A stretch of 7,166 nucleotides of DNA from JACPSX01 sp035288405 [NCBI: bacterium] (GTDB lineage: Bacteria > JACPSX01). The translations under genes and the position numbers were made by a program. Position 1 is the first letter of the stretch, and each line of letters starts with the position of its first letter. Below the pieces are notes generated by a model that was given only the letters and a program-made list of their open reading frames with translations, was not told where the DNA came from and did not search any database. This document shows, in pieces, positions 1,303 to 7,166 of the stretch. The stretch spans positions 1-7,166 of the forward strand of contig DATEAK010000030.1 of the NCBI GenBank assembly GCA_035288405.1, in the 5' to 3' direction.

Positions 1303-3150
1303 GTGAATAAAGAAATTAGCTGTCTCAACACGAAAGCGATTGTGGAGTATGTCCGCCGCCACAATGGCGGGGATTTGAGATCCCTCCTGGAACATCTTGA
1401 TCCCGAGCTCGACCATCAGAAAGACTTGGAGAAATTCCTCACTGACCCCAACAATTGGGTCTCCTCCAAGGTCTTCTCCGATCTCTGCCTCCGGGCTCGC
1501 GAAATCTTCCATGATGACCGGATCGCATTTAAAATTGGCTTTGAATCGATTAGTGCAAACCGTCTCGGATACATTCAAAGAATCTTTGTCCGCACCATGC
1601 GACATCCCCGCGATGGGATACACAAGGCCCAAATCATTAATGACAAATTTAACCGGACCAAGAGTATAGAAATTGTCGAGAATACCCATGGCCGGGCCCT
1701 CGTCCGGCTCCACTGGTATCCGGGCCTGGAACTTAATAAGGACTCTTGCTACATAAACCAGGGCGTCTATTCCGCCATTGCCACGATCTGGGGCATACCA
1801 CCATCCGAAGTGGTTGAATCCTGTTGTTTTTTTGAAGGTGGTTCCTACTGCCAGTATACGATCTCTTGGGCCAAACAATCGTTGCTGAGAGGTCTTTGGT
1901 CCTGGGTTTTTCCCCAGCGGCATCTTCTGGAAGAAGCTGTGGCCGAAATGGAGAAGGACAAGGTCCTGCTGCAAAAGAAGTACGAGGAGGTTTACGACCT
2001 CAACGTTGAACTCAAACACCGTCTCGATCAGCTCGTGAGTCTTCAGGAGAGCAGCCGGGCCATTGTTTCAATCCTCGATGCCAAGAAGCTCCTTACCTCA
2101 GTGATGAGGCTGCTGACGCAAACGATCGGTTTTGAGCGGGCTATCCTCATGCTTGTCGATGAAAATAAGAAAGTTCTCCGCTACGCCTACGGGGTTGGTG
2201 CCGAAGAGAGCATCGAACGGGCCTTCCGCAATTACCAGATCCCCATGGATCGGGCAAGCAATATCCTCGTGCGTGTGGCGAATACAGGGATCCCGGCCTT
2301 CATTGAGGATTCGACGGTAGCCCCGCTGAACAGGGAAAATCCGATCCTGAAGATCTTGAAACCCAAGTCCTTCGTTATTGTCCCCCTGATCAGCCGTAAC
2401 CGCATCATCGGAGTTTTGGGGGCCGACAAGGGAAAAAGTGAAGCAAGAATTTCTCAGGAAGACCGAGATTACCTTCTCAGTTATGCCAACCAAATTGCAG
2501 TGGCCCTCGATAATGCCAAGCTTTATCACGATATCAATGAAAGCTACATGAGCAGCATCCAGTCGCTTGCTCTTGCTCTGGAAGCAAAGGACTCGTACAC
2601 AAAAGGGCATTCGGAGCGCGTTACCCGGCATGCCACAGAAATAGCCAAACTCCTCGGTTTGTCCGAAACGGAATGCGAGCGACTCGGACAGATGAGCATG
2701 ATGCATGATATCGGGAAGATCGGCGTACCCGACATGATTCTCGTAAAGCCCGGCAAGTTAAGCCCGCATGAATGGGATCTCATATGCCGGCACACGACTG
2801 TAGGCGCTAAGATCATTGATCCCCTTCATCTTCCCAAGAATGAGATTGCCATCATCAAGAGTCACCATGAGCGGATCGATGGGAAGGGATACCCGGAAGG
2901 ATTGACCGGAGACGAACTTCCCATTGAAGCCCGCATTGTCTCGGTTGCGGACGCGTTCGACGCGATGACCACGGATCGCCCTTACCGGCGTGCCCTAACA
3001 TTAGGAGCCACCTGCCAGGAGCTCCGGGTAAATTCAGGCAGGCAGTTTGACCCCGAAGTTGCCAGGGCCCTTCTCGAGTTGGTGGAAGACAGCCATACGG
3101 CTCCCTCACGAGTCATTCCTCTTCACCAACACCGTTTTGTCAGGAGTTAA
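1303..3150 (+). CDS. V4R-GAF-HD-GYP sensor, predicted c-di-GMP phosphodiesterase
   Basis: 615 residues with no signal peptide or membrane segment seen, so probably cytoplasmic. Domains: an N-terminal helical part (1-85) with an AraC/XylR-like DPNNWVSSKVF stretch; a V4R/XylR_N-type ligand domain (about 90-190) ending in EGGSYCQYTISW; a coiled coil (about 208-250); GAF (about 250-406); HD-GYP (about 415-590). Cys149, Glu172, Cys175 and Cys183 match in spacing the zinc site of the phenol sensor MopR. HD-GYP is intact: HDIGKIGVP at 468-476 and HHERIDGKGYP at 521-531. His436, His468, Asp469, His497, His521, His522 and Asp550 fall at the known metal-ligand positions. Tyr432 stands where a trinuclear-iron member has Glu, which suggests a binuclear site. 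The likely reaction is hydrolysis of c-di-GMP, gated by two sensor domains. The start is GTG, with GGAGG at 1294-1298 (4 nt spacing) and an in-frame stop at 1288-1290 that excludes an upstream start. The ligand is unknown. Confidence 0.92.
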   Translation: MNKEISCLNTKAIVEYVRRHNGGDLRSLLEHLDPELDHQKDLEKFLTDPNNWVSSKVFSDLCLRAREIFHDDRIAFKIGFESISANRLGYIQRIFVRTMRHPRDGIHKAQIINDKFNRTKSIEIVENTHGRALVRLHWYPGLELNKDSCYINQGVYSAIATIWGIPPSEVVESCCFFEGGSYCQYTISWAKQSLLRGLWSWVFPQRHLLEEAVAEMEKDKVLLQKKYEEVYDLNVELKHRLDQLVSLQESSRAIVSILDAKKLLTSVMRLLTQTIGFERAILMLVDENKKVLRYAYGVGAEESIERAFRNYQIPMDRASNILVRVANTGIPAFIEDSTVAPLNRENPILKILKPKSFVIVPLISRNRIIGVLGADKGKSEARISQEDRDYLLSYANQIAVALDNAKLYHDINESYMSSIQSLALALEAKDSYTKGHSERVTRHATEIAKLLGLSETECERLGQMSMMHDIGKIGVPDMILVKPGKLSPHEWDLICRHTTVGAKIIDPLHLPKNEIAIIKSHHERIDGKGYPEGLTGDELPIEARIVSVADAFDAMTTDRPYRRALTLGATCQELRVNSGRQFDPEVARALLELVEDSHTAPSRVIPLHQHRFVRS

Positions 3151-3153
3151 ATC

Positions 3154-3176
3154 AGGGGGCTCCCCCTTTGTTGTTT
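3154..3176 (+). terminator. Likely intrinsic terminator of the sensor gene
   Basis: Starting 3 nt after the TAA (3148-3150), AGGGG (3154-3158) pairs with CCCCT (3163-3167) around a GCTC tetraloop, and is followed by the T-rich run TTTGTTGTTT. The stem is short but almost all G-C, and the position right after the stop fits Rho-independent termination. The interrupted T-tract lowers confidence. Confidence 0.5.
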
Positions 3177-3442
3177 ACGACTCATCTTCTTGGTACTCGA
3201 GGGACACGCTCATCGCTCCGGAATGCAGGTGAACTCCGGGCGATCCTTCGAGAAAGGTAGTCCGACAACGGATCTTTGTCACCCTTTGAGTTGCAGGGTT
3301 ACTCCGTGCACAGTTGCGGGCTTGTCTGAGTTCCAGGCACCCGGCAAGTCATAGAGAGAAGGGTGAGTCTTCTTCCGCTCTCATCTACGGTCATTGTCGA
3401 GGGGGAAAGAAATTTAGGATCCATAGTGGCCGGGAGGGCTGC
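3177..3442. other. Intergenic gap with two weak adjacent hairpins
   Basis: This stretch of about 266 bases holds no gene I can support. Two small inverted repeats stand side by side: GACAA 3264-3268 with TTGTC 3276-3280 (7-nt loop), then ACCCT 3281-3285 with AGGGT 3295-3299 (9-nt loop). Together they could form tandem 5-bp hairpins in an RNA, but stems this short are common by chance. The best promoter-like pair for the next operon is TTGTCG (3394-3399) and TAGGAT (3415-3420), but 15 bp is too tight. The acyltransferase frame stays open back to a TTG at 3314; that part lacks protein-like character. Confidence 0.3.
3433..3437 (+). promoter_or_regulatory. Shine-Dalgarno that fixes the acyltransferase start
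   Basis: GGAGG sits 5 nt before ATG 3443. The same frame is open back to TTG 3314, but that start has no such site. The region between is rich in Ser, Arg and Gly and unlike the family, so ATG 3443 is the preferred start. Confidence 0.75.
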
Positions 3443-4435
3443 ATGGGCATCAGTGAATTCTTTCAACTCCCCCTAAACCGTCTCATTTTTTCATTCCTTC
3501 CCCCTTACTTTTCTTATATGTATCTCCTCTTTTTGGGAAAGATCTATTTTTGGTTACGGCCGGAGGAGCGGCGCCTGATCACGGAAAATATCCGGGAGGT
3601 CCTACAAAGTCGGAAGCCATCGGCTGACCTCCGGCAGATCACCCGTGCCACTTTTCGCGGCATCTTTCACCACTATGCTGAGAAGCTCTTCCAGGCCTAT
3701 CACGAATACGGGGCGGTCATCGAGTATCTACGGAAGAAAGTTCACATTTCGGGGATCGAGCACATCGACCACAAACTGCGTCAGGGGAAAGGTGTGCTTC
3801 TGGTTACAGCCCACTTTGGCGGCGTGGAATTCTTGCCCACGGTGCTTGCTCTTCAGCGCTATCACCCCTACATGGTGGTTAAGTTTAAAACTCCTTCCTT
3901 GAAGCAAAACCTCGAAGAGAGAGCAGCCCGGGTCGGCCTTTCTCTGATCGACGCCGACGAAGGCAATCTATTCTTTCGGCTGGTAAGGATCTTGAGAGAG
4001 AACAACATCCTGATCACCGAGTGTGACGAGGTGGATTCGCTTAATCCCTCGACAGCGGCCTGCGGAAATATGTTTGGAGTTCCTGTCTACACCGATCGTA
4101 GCATTGATCTTTTGCAGAGAAAATCCGGGGCCCATGTTCTGAGCGTCTTCTTAGTCCGTAATAAGATGAGAGGATACCAGCTCGGAATCGAGCCTCTGGA
4201 AACACCTGAATTCTCCAGGGGGTCGGTTGCCGCAAATTTGCTGAGCGTCCTTGAAAAATACATCCTGCAATATCCTGATCAATGGTACCAGTGGAAGAAT
4301 TGGAAACGGTTGCGGGCAAGTCCCGATTTTGCACCCGCTCAGGTGCTGTCCCAACCCCGGAGGCAAAGCCCCAACCGTGAACCCAAAAGCCCCCAGATCC
4401 CACTGGGGGATGACATGCCGGGAGCGGCTGCGTGA
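3443..4435 (+). CDS. LpxL/HtrB-family membrane acyltransferase
   Basis: 330 residues from ATG 3443 (E. coli LpxL has 306). The family moves an acyl chain, usually from acyl-ACP, onto lipid A precursors or related lipids at the cytoplasmic face of the inner membrane. A hydrophobic N-terminal anchor (about 11-38) is followed by the catalytic HX4E motif in TAHFGGVEF, with His124 and Glu129. The C-terminal YPDQWYQWKNWKRL matches the family's conserved end block. The second block is unusual: CDEVD begins at Cys194, where LpxL proteins commonly have a DQ-type motif, and then come NMFGVPVYTDRS and a GAHVL segment. A Pro/Arg-rich tail of about 30 residues extends beyond the family fold. The gene overlaps the next by 4 nt (GTGA), so the two are translationally coupled. 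This pairing suggests it may acylate something other than lipid A, such as an amino-acid or peptide-linked lipid; that is inference. Confidence 0.87.
   Translation: MGISEFFQLPLNRLIFSFLPPYFSYMYLLFLGKIYFWLRPEERRLITENIREVLQSRKPSADLRQITRATFRGIFHHYAEKLFQAYHEYGAVIEYLRKKVHISGIEHIDHKLRQGKGVLLVTAHFGGVEFLPTVLALQRYHPYMVVKFKTPSLKQNLEERAARVGLSLIDADEGNLFFRLVRILRENNILITECDEVDSLNPSTAACGNMFGVPVYTDRSIDLLQRKSGAHVLSVFLVRNKMRGYQLGIEPLETPEFSRGSVAANLLSVLEKYILQYPDQWYQWKNWKRLRASPDFAPAQVLSQPRRQSPNREPKSPQIPLGDDMPGAAA
4420..4424 (+). promoter_or_regulatory. Shine-Dalgarno inside the acyltransferase gene, for the epimerase-like gene
   Basis: GGGAG lies 7 nt before GTG 4432. The alternative in-frame ATG at 4456 has no site upstream, so the GTG with its 4-nt stop/start overlap is preferred, although the first eight residues are not conserved-looking. 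Confidence 0.6.
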
Positions 4436-5616
4436 ATCTTTCTTCTGTCGCGCTCATGGATCTTCGCATTCGGCCACAAACCTCCCCGGTGGAAATCTCT
4501 GCCGCTGAACTCTGGAAGTTGCAGATTCCCTTGGGAAGAGCCATCGGCCACTTCCAGGCCAAACGAAACAACTCGGATAACCTCGTGGCCCATGTCGTTA
4601 GTAAAGCGGGGGTCGATGGATTCGGAGAAGCGGTGCCCCGGGAATACGTAACGGGGGAAACTCTTTCCACAGCCACGGCCGCAGCCCGCCACCTTCTTGA
4701 GAGGTTCAAGGGCAAACGCTGGGAGACCGTCGGGGCTTTGCTGAATGATCTGGAAAAACTGGATCGAGATCCACGAATGTTGGATCATCCATCGGCCCGT
4801 TGTGCTGTCGAACTGGCTCTGCTGGATTGTGCCGGGAAAACCTGGGGGATTTCCGTCGCGGACATGTTGGGAGGGAACTGCAGAGATTCGGTGGAATACA
4901 GCGCTGTGATTCCCTTCGAAGAACCTGGGACACTGGACACCATCCTCGATATGGTCAAGACTCAGAAAGTGCGGTCTGTAAAGGTCAAGGTGGGGAGATC
5001 ACAGGACCTGGAAACGGTGGAGAGCGTACGTCAGAAGTTGGGAGAAGGAATTTCTCTGCGCCTGGATGCCAATGGGGCCTGGAGTTCTCGGGACGCCATC
5101 GAGAAACTCAAGGCGCTGGAGGTCTATGAAATAGACGCCATCGAGCAGCCGGTTTCCAAGGAGGACTGGCAAGGGCTGCGGGAAGTCAGCGAATCCGTCT
5201 CTATTCGAGTCATTGCCGATGAGTCAATGGTGTCTCTGGAGGATGCCCGGGGTCTGATCGCTGCCGGGGCTTGTGGGGGCCTCAATCTCAGAATTTCAAA
5301 ATGCGGCGGGCTTTTGTCCGCCCGCAGGATTTACAGATTTGCCCGCGCCTCCGGAATTCCCTGCCAAATGGGCTGCCAGGTGGGAGAAACGGGGATCCTG
5401 TCGGCGGCGGGCCGGCACTTCGCGGCCAGGATTCCGGACCTTCTCTTTGCCGAGGGCTCTTTTAACCGATATATCCTCAGCGAAGATATCGTGGAGGAAG
5501 ATCTCACCTTTGGAATCTCGGGATATGCACCGGTTCTAAAGTCTCCGGGCCTGGGGATCACGATCAGTCAAACCAGAGTACAGGAATACAGCCAGGACCG
5601 GATTTCCTGCTTTTAG
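4432..5616 (+). CDS. Enolase-superfamily enzyme, muconate-lactonizing / dipeptide-epimerase subgroup
   Basis: 394 residues, slightly longer than typical dipeptide epimerases. A capping domain comes first (about 13-140) with GFGEAVPREYVTGET, then a beta/alpha barrel. The chemistry set of the subgroup is complete: KVK at 184-186 (Lys186 as acid/base), metal ligands Asp212 (in LDANGAW), Glu238 (in IEQP) and Asp263 (in ADES), and Lys290 (in RISKCGG) on the opposite face. This arrangement abstracts a proton alpha to a carboxylate, giving racemization/epimerization, cycloisomerization or dehydration. Near the barrel end, CQMGCQVGETGILS (Glu319) replaces the better-known specificity strings of Ala-Glu epimerase or o-succinylbenzoate synthase, so I cannot assign a substrate. 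It is probably cytoplasmic. Coupling to the acyltransferase suggests action on an amino acid, a dipeptide or an N-acyl amino acid that later carries or receives an acyl chain; this is inference. Start GTG 4432, stop TAG 5614-5616. Confidence 0.9.
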   Translation: MNLSSVALMDLRIRPQTSPVEISAAELWKLQIPLGRAIGHFQAKRNNSDNLVAHVVSKAGVDGFGEAVPREYVTGETLSTATAAARHLLERFKGKRWETVGALLNDLEKLDRDPRMLDHPSARCAVELALLDCAGKTWGISVADMLGGNCRDSVEYSAVIPFEEPGTLDTILDMVKTQKVRSVKVKVGRSQDLETVESVRQKLGEGISLRLDANGAWSSRDAIEKLKALEVYEIDAIEQPVSKEDWQGLREVSESVSIRVIADESMVSLEDARGLIAAGACGGLNLRISKCGGLLSARRIYRFARASGIPCQMGCQVGETGILSAAGRHFAARIPDLLFAEGSFNRYILSEDIVEEDLTFGISGYAPVLKSPGLGITISQTRVQEYSQDRISCF

Positions 5617-5792: not shown

Positions 5793-7166
5793 ATGAGCCA
5801 GCATGAACCAGAGAACATCTCACTAGACGATCGCTACCTCCGTGAAGAGGGAACCGTATACCTCAGCGGCTTGCAGGCTCTGGTGCGCTTGCCGATCGAT
5901 CAGAACCGGAGGGACCGCCGGGCCGGGCTGCGCATCGGTACCTTTATCAGCGGTTACCCAGGATCACCCCTGGGAGGGTACGACCTTGCTTTAAGACAGG
6001 CTCGCCCGCTGCTCGAACCGTTCGGCATCGCACATGTACCCGGTGGGAATGAGGAGCTTGCCGCCTCCGCCATCAGCGGCACCCAGATGCTGGACAACTA
6101 CCCCCACTCGCGATTCGACGGCGTAGTGGCACTCTGGTACGGCAAGGGTCCTGGTGTGGACCGCAGCGGCGACGCCTTCAAGCACGGCAACTTCGCGGGT
6201 ACCAGCCGGCATGGGGCCGTTGTTATTCTAAGCGGCGAAGACCACGAAGCCAAGAGTTCCACTCTCCCCTACCAGGATGACTACGCCTTCCTGAGCGCCG
6301 GGATCCCCATCCTGTACCCGGCTTCTACGGCCGAGTTTCTCGAGCTGGGGCTCCATGCCATCGCACTCTCCCGTTACAGCGGATGCTGGGCGGCGCTCAA
6401 GTTGGTCGGACCTCTGGCGGACGGTGGAGAAATGGTGAGAGTCCATCCGGAACGGCCATCGATCATCGTCCCCGAGCTCAATTTCGGCGATCGGAAGTTC
6501 AAAAAGTCTACTGATTTCACTTTCTTTCCCGGCACAAACATCGAGACGGAGCGGCAGATCTACTACGAGCGCCACCAAGCGGCGCTTGCCTACGCGCGTG
6601 CCAACAAACTCAATCGGGTAGTTTTACGTTCCTCGCAGGATCGGCTGGGCATCATCACTTCCGGAAAAAGTTTCGCCGACACCCTCCAGGCACTCCTCGA
6701 CATGGGACTCGATGATGAAATCCTGCAGCATTTCGGTGTACGGCTGCTCCGCGTGGGCTTGATCTATCCACTGGACGCCGATGCCATTCGCGACTTTGCC
6801 CGCGACCTCGAGAGGATTATCGTCATCGAGGAAAAGCGGGGCTTTCTGGAAGCTCAGGTCAAAGAGGCTCTGTGCGGTTTCCCTCATCCACTCAAGGTCG
6901 TTGGAAAGTTCGACGAGACCGGCGTCCCTCTCTTCCCCATCCAGGGAGGCATGGACAGCGACTTGATCGCCGAACGGTTGGGCCCCCTCCTTCTTAACAC
7001 CGTTGGCCCTTCCCCAGGGATCCTGAGCCGGTTGGCTCAACTGCAGAATGTCCGCTCCCGCCAGTACGACGCACTCCCCTCGCGCACGCCCAACTACTGC
7101 TCGGGCTGCCCCCACAACGTTTCCACCCGCCTGTTGGATGGGCAGGTGGCCTGGGGCAGTCCCGGC
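5793..7166 (+). CDS. Fused indolepyruvate ferredoxin oxidoreductase-type enzyme (N-terminal part, runs off the window)
   Basis: 458 codons are visible and open at the window edge; fused members of this family run to about 1,150-1,200 residues. The enzyme oxidatively decarboxylates aryl-pyruvates (indolepyruvate, phenylpyruvate) to acyl-CoA, using thiamine diphosphate and an electron acceptor, in aromatic amino acid breakdown. The fused type is shown by the N-terminal run DDRYLREEGTVYLSG.QALVRLP. It is followed by the pyrimidine-domain motif FISGYPGSPLGGYD (51-64) and by GEDHEAKSSTLP from Gly148. An IEEKR segment lies near the end of the transketolase-like C-terminal part. CSGCPHN at 436-442 opens the TPP-binding domain. 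ATG 5793 has GAGGGA at 5785-5790, and an in-frame TAG at 5754-5756 bars upstream extension. The gamma-subunit domain, and whether any Fe-S domain is present, lie beyond the window. Confidence 0.92.
   Translation, partial: MSQHEPENISLDDRYLREEGTVYLSGLQALVRLPIDQNRRDRRAGLRIGTFISGYPGSPLGGYDLALRQARPLLEPFGIAHVPGGNEELAASAISGTQMLDNYPHSRFDGVVALWYGKGPGVDRSGDAFKHGNFAGTSRHGAVVILSGEDHEAKSSTLPYQDDYAFLSAGIPILYPASTAEFLELGLHAIALSRYSGCWAALKLVGPLADGGEMVRVHPERPSIIVPELNFGDRKFKKSTDFTFFPGTNIETERQIYYERHQAALAYARANKLNRVVLRSSQDRLGIITSGKSFADTLQALLDMGLDDEILQHFGVRLLRVGLIYPLDADAIRDFARDLERIIVIEEKRGFLEAQVKEALCGFPHPLKVVGKFDETGVPLFPIQGGMDSDLIAERLGPLLLNTVGPSPGILSRLAQLQNVRSRQYDALPSRTPNYCSGCPHNVSTRLLDGQVAWGSPG

Follow-up and report, generated by a model that had tools for sequence, protein, structure and literature searches.

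The window analyzed here is a stretch of 7,166 nucleotides. On its plus strand, positions 1303 to 3150 form an unbroken open reading frame for a protein of 615 residues that begins at a GTG codon, a start also present in a close ortholog from a Tectomicrobia metagenome-assembled genome (MAG), whose frame is open just four codons further upstream. The encoded protein consists of an N-terminal domain of probable H-NOX/V4R superfamily membership, a coiled coil, a GAF domain, and an HD-GYP domain. The putative N-terminal sensor domain (N-domain; residues 1 to 195, positions 1303 to 1887) was recognized through family profile comparisons with HNOB and V4R and has no Pfam match alone; residues 1 to 232 gave zero Pfam matches, even at an E value of 10. 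It is followed by a helical linker, probably a coiled coil (residues 196 to 250, positions 1888 to 2052), for which AlphaFold predicted a helix at residues 193 to 244 in an otherwise poor model (block pLDDT of 62 to 85 over residues 211 to 245). Pfam placed a GAF domain at residues 259 to 403 (positions 2077 to 2511; GAF_2 at 3.9e-15, with GAF_3 and GAF) and an HD-GYP phosphodiesterase domain at residues 425 to 586 (positions 2575 to 3060; HD_5 at 3.9e-35), both far beyond the cut-offs, confirming the original prediction of a GAF domain between the sensor and the HD-GYP domain.

Right after the HD-GYP gene, we detected a terminator-like stem-loop with a weak T tail (3153 to 3170, plus strand; pattern match only), which could uncouple this gene from the pair downstream. 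The first gene of the pair encodes an LpxL/HtrB-type acyltransferase (3314 to 4435, plus strand; Pfam PF03279, 1.1e-18); homolog alignments begin near an ATG at about 3443, which is the probable true start. The second overlaps it by 4 bases as called and encodes an MLE-type enzyme of the enolase superfamily (4432 to 5616, plus strand; Pfam MR_MLE_C, 3.6e-49), with a below-cut-off match to the muconate-cycloisomerase-like family TIGR02534 (6.4e-49). A gene resembling indolepyruvate ferredoxin oxidoreductase (5793 to 7166) runs off the end of the window, and trpS (57 to 1043) lies upstream of the HD-GYP gene, as it does in the Tectomicrobia MAG (locus L085:1693-2637); a trpS-matching fragment was also seen about 4 kb upstream in another genome, G298 (locus L106:2-478). 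Rfam found nothing at its gathering score in the window.

Over residues 250 to 595, the window protein has the GAF-HD-GYP layout of PmGH from Persephonella marina (PDB 4mcw), which is without an N-domain of the H-NOX/V4R type. Mapping on PmGH located the HD motif at His468-Asp469 (2704 to 2709, plus strand) and the GYP motif at Gly529-Tyr530-Pro531 (2887 to 2895, plus strand). Seven of the eight PmGH metal ligands are kept, as are the D183/K225 pair, the GYP residues, D308, and R314, whereas the eighth ligand, E185, is replaced by Tyr432, I294 by Leu539, and K317 by Arg562. The domain had been described as catalytically intact; this stands for the catalytic residues and seven ligands and fails at the E185 position. 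According to the available text of the PmGH study, mutation of E185 reduces activity and does not abolish it (PMC4159591). From the retained residues, we expect the domain to be active, probably with two metals.

The whole protein scored best against PmGH (1.1e-43, versus 9.5e-42 for a 3′3′-cGAMP phosphodiesterase), but the HD-GYP part alone scored the 3′3′-cGAMP enzyme (5z7c, 1.9e-43) slightly above PmGH (4mcw, 3.1e-39). Together with the replacements at E185, I294, and K317, this last comparison would fit an output that acts on 3′3′-cGAMP or another dinucleotide instead of c-di-GMP, or that serves as a scaffold. We consider such an output quite unlikely, given the retention of the catalytic residues and seven metal ligands and the whole-protein preference for PmGH.

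Within the N-domain, we found four putative zinc ligands on the plus strand: Cys149 (1747 to 1749), five residues ahead of Gly154; Glu172 (1816 to 1818); Cys175 (1825 to 1827); and Cys183 (1849 to 1851). An additional cysteine, Cys174, lies next to the tetrad. The spacing C-x22-E-x2-C-x7-C is identical in the MopR chain (PDB 5kbe), just as the original prediction had noted, and in XylR of pWW0 even the numbering is the same (149/172/175/183). The MopR/DmpR/XylR group (PDB 5kbe and 6iy8) also shares the glycine five residues past the first cysteine, and the tetrad was invariant in 10 of 10 aligned XylR-type proteins from plasmids. Cys151, Cys177, and Cys185 of DmpR, as given in the available text of PMC7264223, show the same spacings of 26 and 8. 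That text numbers the DmpR zinc glutamate Glu172; in the aligned DmpR chain, this glutamate sits three positions ahead of the second zinc cysteine, so that 174 would be expected. Among 200,000 shuffles of the window protein, the spaced motif arose by chance in 18.

We examined the tetrad in 23 aligned relatives (set A5), which were chosen from several dozen places with fragments and many stand-alone copies excluded, are thus not a random sample, and include two near-identical sequences (L009 and L021). Gly154 is invariant across the set. The four positions read CECC in 12 relatives, CHCC in 4 (position 172 being His), and CSCC in 1, and the site is missing in 6, so that 16 of the 23 chosen relatives have it as C-[E/H]-C-C. 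Cys149 and Cys183 go together, in that 17 relatives have both and 6 have neither. Two of the site-less relatives read DTIS, and among the other four, L037 retains Cys175 alone. All nine HD-GYP-linked members examined have the site (Glu in seven, His in two), bearing out the claim of an intact zinc-type tetrad: the four residues lie at the predicted positions and are conserved where the output is HD-GYP. In these chosen relatives, the tetrad is retained or lost almost as a unit, as a metal site predicts, with Fisher p-values that take no account of the relatedness of the sequences and are inflated by it. Zinc is not essential to the module, since 6 of 23 relatives are without the site, and their keeping the module suggests that ligand binding is independent of it.

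The original prediction had also placed the N-domain with V4R or XylR_N. For the single sequence this was not borne out: the window protein gave zero Pfam matches to V4R (PF02830), XylR_N (PF06505), and HNOB, with none to V4R at E values up to 10. Against the V4R gathering score of 31 bits, five close orthologs all stayed below the cut-off (best, 20.5 bits), with E values of 5e-4 in G287, 0.0048 in G297, 0.12 in G032, and 0.14 in G145 and none at or below 0.5 in G298; in the Pfam scan, V4R was not listed for the distant HD-GYP proteins of G148 and G226. XylR_N was absent in G001, G032, and G145 and likewise matched 0 of 14 control genomes. Family-level support came from the 23 relatives, 9 of which matched V4R at E values of 0.1 or below (best, 2.6e-5) and 2 of which matched HNOB (best, 3.3e-4) in single-sequence Pfam searches. 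Arabinose_bd (PF12625, AraC-type) and DUF2378 were each matched by four of them.

In profile-profile comparisons, a core profile of 18 multi-domain members matched HNOB over 173 columns (probability 96.6, score 67.0), which was the top match, V4R over 70 columns (89.2, 45.9), and XylR over 45 columns at the zinc region only (10.5, 27.0). In 60 column shuffles per target, the top scores were 18.1 for HNOB, 18.9 for V4R, and 16.6 for XylR, and an unrelated enzyme family reached probability 0.3 and score 16.6 against the core profile. The V4R control of at most 18.9 comes from a rerun with 60 other shuffles and an 18-sequence set; in an earlier V4R-set control, 1 of 40 shuffles scored 129.8 (probability 99.6), above the real comparison, and the cause was not found. 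The comparison sets were trimmed by hand: of 15 loci for HNOB we kept 10, and of 19 for V4R likewise 10, because unsuitable open reading frames had been picked at the others. The HNOB profile matched V4R with a probability of 86.2 and XylR with 0.1, i.e., no direct match, and in another comparison, profile A1 matched the XylR set with a probability of 48.7, with the cysteine columns aligned. Because a profile of the five closest orthologs reaches V4R weakly (63.7) and HNOB and XylR not at all (2.1 and 0.1), the superfamily placement leans on the distant relatives. Five stand-alone relatives (L012, L013, L014, L036, and L037) yielded a profile that matched HNOB at 93.7, V4R at 91.1, and XylR weakly at 25.8; short relatives of this kind may bridge H-NOX and the N-domain. 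A profile search of the PDB with A1 returned 14 rows with E values of 0.32 to 1.6, which we judged to be chance.

Relationships among these families have been described before. The accessible parts of two studies relate TRAPPC3, the V4R domain of PoxR, and H-NOX by structure (PMC10933270) and HNOB, V4R, and MetOD1 by sequence (PMC5847659). According to the latter, MetOD1, a domain of methanogen two-component systems, resembles both HNOB and V4R and has three conserved cysteines; MetOD1 was not among the families in the Pfam scans of our relatives. Our family profiles place the N-domain, as a distant member, in the superfamily to which V4R, H-NOX, and the sensors of XylR and MopR belong.

AlphaFold models of the N-domain, each made from two sequences (the window protein and L001), had mean pLDDT values of 47.8 and 50.8. 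Foldseek and VIA-align searches with these low-pLDDT models returned mostly ribosomal protein S24e (about residues 117 to 193 in one search), which we took as chance, and H-NOX, MopR, and Bet3 chains were absent among the matches listed. Bacillus subtilis YslB, which we take to have a TRAPP/V4R-like fold, appeared among the structure matches without significance (E values of 0.09 to 0.7).

HNOB being the closest profile, and His107 of the window protein aligning with the H-NOX proximal histidine, a heme-based sensor of NO or O2 fused to HD-GYP could be envisaged. However, the His107 position is occupied by Q, K, R, R, R, and L in six close orthologs, and the YxSxR motif, which all 10 of the compared HNOB sequences contain, is missing in the window protein; the string occurs somewhere in the sequence of 4 of the 23 relatives. 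A canonical heme sensor is unlikely because the proximal histidine is not conserved and YxSxR is missing, and we find a heme-based sensor of this type hardly credible. The zinc-type site itself is shared with H-NOX: 6 of 10 sequences compared fit C-x4-G-x15-19-[EHQ]-x2-C-x7-C, and the available text of PMC7108781 gives the Shewanella oneidensis H-NOX site as Cys139/His161/Cys164/Cys172.

Under the reading put forward originally, the N-domain would be an aromatic sensor that takes up a phenol-like ligand next to the zinc, in the manner of MopR and DmpR. In favor of this reading are the tetrad spacing, which is identical to that of MopR and XylR, and the muconate-cycloisomerase-like enzyme and the partial indolepyruvate oxidoreductase-like gene nearby. 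However, XylR ranks last among the three profile matches, with a weak, local alignment confined in the core set to the zinc region; the DmpR pocket residues His100 and Trp128, named in the available text of PMC7264223, are without an established counterpart in an alignment that is unreliable upstream of the zinc region; and the MLE-type neighbor is without an assigned substrate. Whereas the output of MopR, DmpR, and XylR is an AAA+ sigma54 activator, the window protein has GAF and HD-GYP domains. Moreover, H-NOX and the redox-sensing methanogen regulator MsvR also carry this site, so that the tetrad does not point to aromatics; it is a superfamily trait with several uses. Aromatic sensing therefore over-specified the ligand, and we now regard it as improbable.

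The main rival is a redox switch, in which oxidation of Cys149, Cys175, and Cys183, with Cys174 nearby, would rearrange the domain and switch the HD-GYP output with no organic ligand. MsvR, compared here by description only, is an archaeal V4R protein with a DNA-binding output; its three V4R cysteines (206, 232, and 240) have the same spacings of 26 and 8 and, according to the available text of PMC3729527, affect redox-dependent DNA binding. That text reports DNA binding by the C206A variant even when reductant is absent, with less clear roles for cysteines 232 and 240. Similarly, in the available text of PMC7108781, a heme-free Vibrio cholerae H-NOX responds to oxidation at its zinc-site cysteines. 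Retention of the site in 9 of 9 HD-GYP-linked members examined would also fit a redox switch. On the other hand, 6 of 23 relatives have the module without the site, so it can signal otherwise, and MopR-type proteins with the same site sense phenols. We consider the redox switch somewhat unlikely.

The fusion of the N-domain to HD-GYP is real and conserved, and it looks uncommon. The nearest ortholog, 84 and 89% identical for its two pieces (L001 and L002), is split over two contigs of the groundwater Candidatus Tectomicrobia MAG (G001). Close orthologs with the N-domain-GAF-HD-GYP order were found in G001 (split), G032, G145, G287, G297, and G298. In the two distant HD-GYP versions (G148 and G226), membrane-type segments separate the N-domain from the GAF domain. 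Hydrophobic membrane-type segments also occur shortly after the N-domain in L029, L031, L008, L011, L027, and L030 and would put it at the membrane in those members. An N-domain search matched 10 of 145 genomes near the Tectomicrobia MAG, and a 12-sequence N-domain profile matched 42 of 290 genomes, often at short frames that stand alone. With a profile of five orthologs, we obtained matches in 4 of 64 genomes from the G145 phylum and in 2 of 2 from the G287 phylum, with weaker or partial matches (G296 and G148) included. Because G001, G145, and G287 come from phylum samples that differ from one another, the HD-GYP version is present in at least three phyla. These searches comprised 1,230 genome scans of overlapping sets, mainly from one neighborhood of the tree.

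The N-domain also precedes histidine kinases (L007, L008, L010, and L011), class III cyclases (L009, L027, and L030), and a Ser/Thr kinase (L041). Given such different outputs, HD-GYP included, it behaves as an exchangeable input module. Four scans of viral contigs found no confirmed relative of the N-domain, and searches of plasmids and phages gave no match. None of 26 V4R-matching open reading frames from 30 loci was fused to HD-GYP. One of these 26 (L046:826-2055, minus strand) is a V4R protein with a GGDEF motif, so that in this region of the tree c-di-GMP synthesis may also be under V4R control.

The acyltransferase-enolase pair lies near the HD-GYP gene in all five genomes where this could be observed (G001, G032, G145, G287, and G297). 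In G001 the pair is on the contig that carries the 3′ part of the HD-GYP gene, in G032 the HD-GYP gene and the acyltransferase gene are divergent, and in G297 one frame of 809 codons lies between the HD-GYP gene and the pair; the G298 contig ends about 780 bases past the HD-GYP gene. Both the stem-loop and the divergent arrangement seen in G032 speak against a strict operon. In the MAG ortholog, the gene for the enolase-superfamily enzyme (L002:1928-3179) is spread across two frames, possibly through a sequencing or assembly error. We did not find the pair in the surrounding 14 to 16 kb for seven kinase or cyclase versions (G131, G053, G092, G029, G106, G206, and G217) or, for the distant HD-GYP versions of G148 and G226, in the surrounding 8 and 16 kb. 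The pair also occurs beside receiver and kinase genes in G261, a genome not listed with the N-domain in the 290-genome profile search. G172 and G025 have a weaker form of it, and there GH3-type enzymes are no more than about 4 kb away.

We propose, with a probability of roughly 0.55, that the window protein acts as a soluble one-component phosphodiesterase for cyclic dinucleotides, controlled by a zinc domain that probably lacks heme and binds a small hydrophobic ligand. The N-domain would belong to the H-NOX/V4R fold superfamily as a divergent member in which, we infer, Cys149, Glu172, Cys175, and Cys183 hold a single zinc ion linking the last strands to the Gly154 helix. A pocket like that of the superfamily could take up a small ligand, probably hydrophobic or of acyl type, and the resulting change in the N-domain would pass through the coiled coil and the GAF domain to raise or lower the hydrolysis of what is presumably c-di-GMP by the HD-GYP domain. 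The hydrophobic or acyl reading is based on V4R domains, which are thought to bind hydrophobic ligands (PMC2253512, available text), on the membrane-type segments in distant members, and on the acyltransferase neighbor. Alternatively, sensing may lie mainly with the GAF domain.

In the open-license literature, we found no V4R-HD-GYP fusion, V4R appearing beside HD-GYP only as part of an accession, and nothing joining "vinyl reductase" with a c-di-GMP phosphodiesterase; none of the V4R-domain papers among the titles listed concerned HD-GYP. A search for V4R with diguanylate or sensor-domain terms returned V4R only as part of an accession among the matches listed. The available text of a study of photoactive yellow protein mentions PYP-V4R fusions and none to HD-GYP. 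From its own analysis, a review of how c-di-GMP networks sense signals suggests, in its available text, that HNOB may go with GGDEF proteins alone; the term V4R is missing from the main text of this review, as far as available (PMC8846402).

A larger circuit can be proposed only with rather low confidence: the heme-free zinc domain, the HD-GYP output, and the neighboring gene pair would act together in at least three phyla, with an acylated product of the pair, or else the thiol state of the zinc site, setting the breakdown of cyclic dinucleotides. To our knowledge, the input signals of many HD-GYP proteins are not known. Through a direct fusion to HD-GYP, this superfamily would bring a further class of sensor to the breakdown of cyclic dinucleotides, one in which zinc, ligand, and output could be tested together in one soluble protein and for which the conserved gene pair offers concrete ligand candidates.
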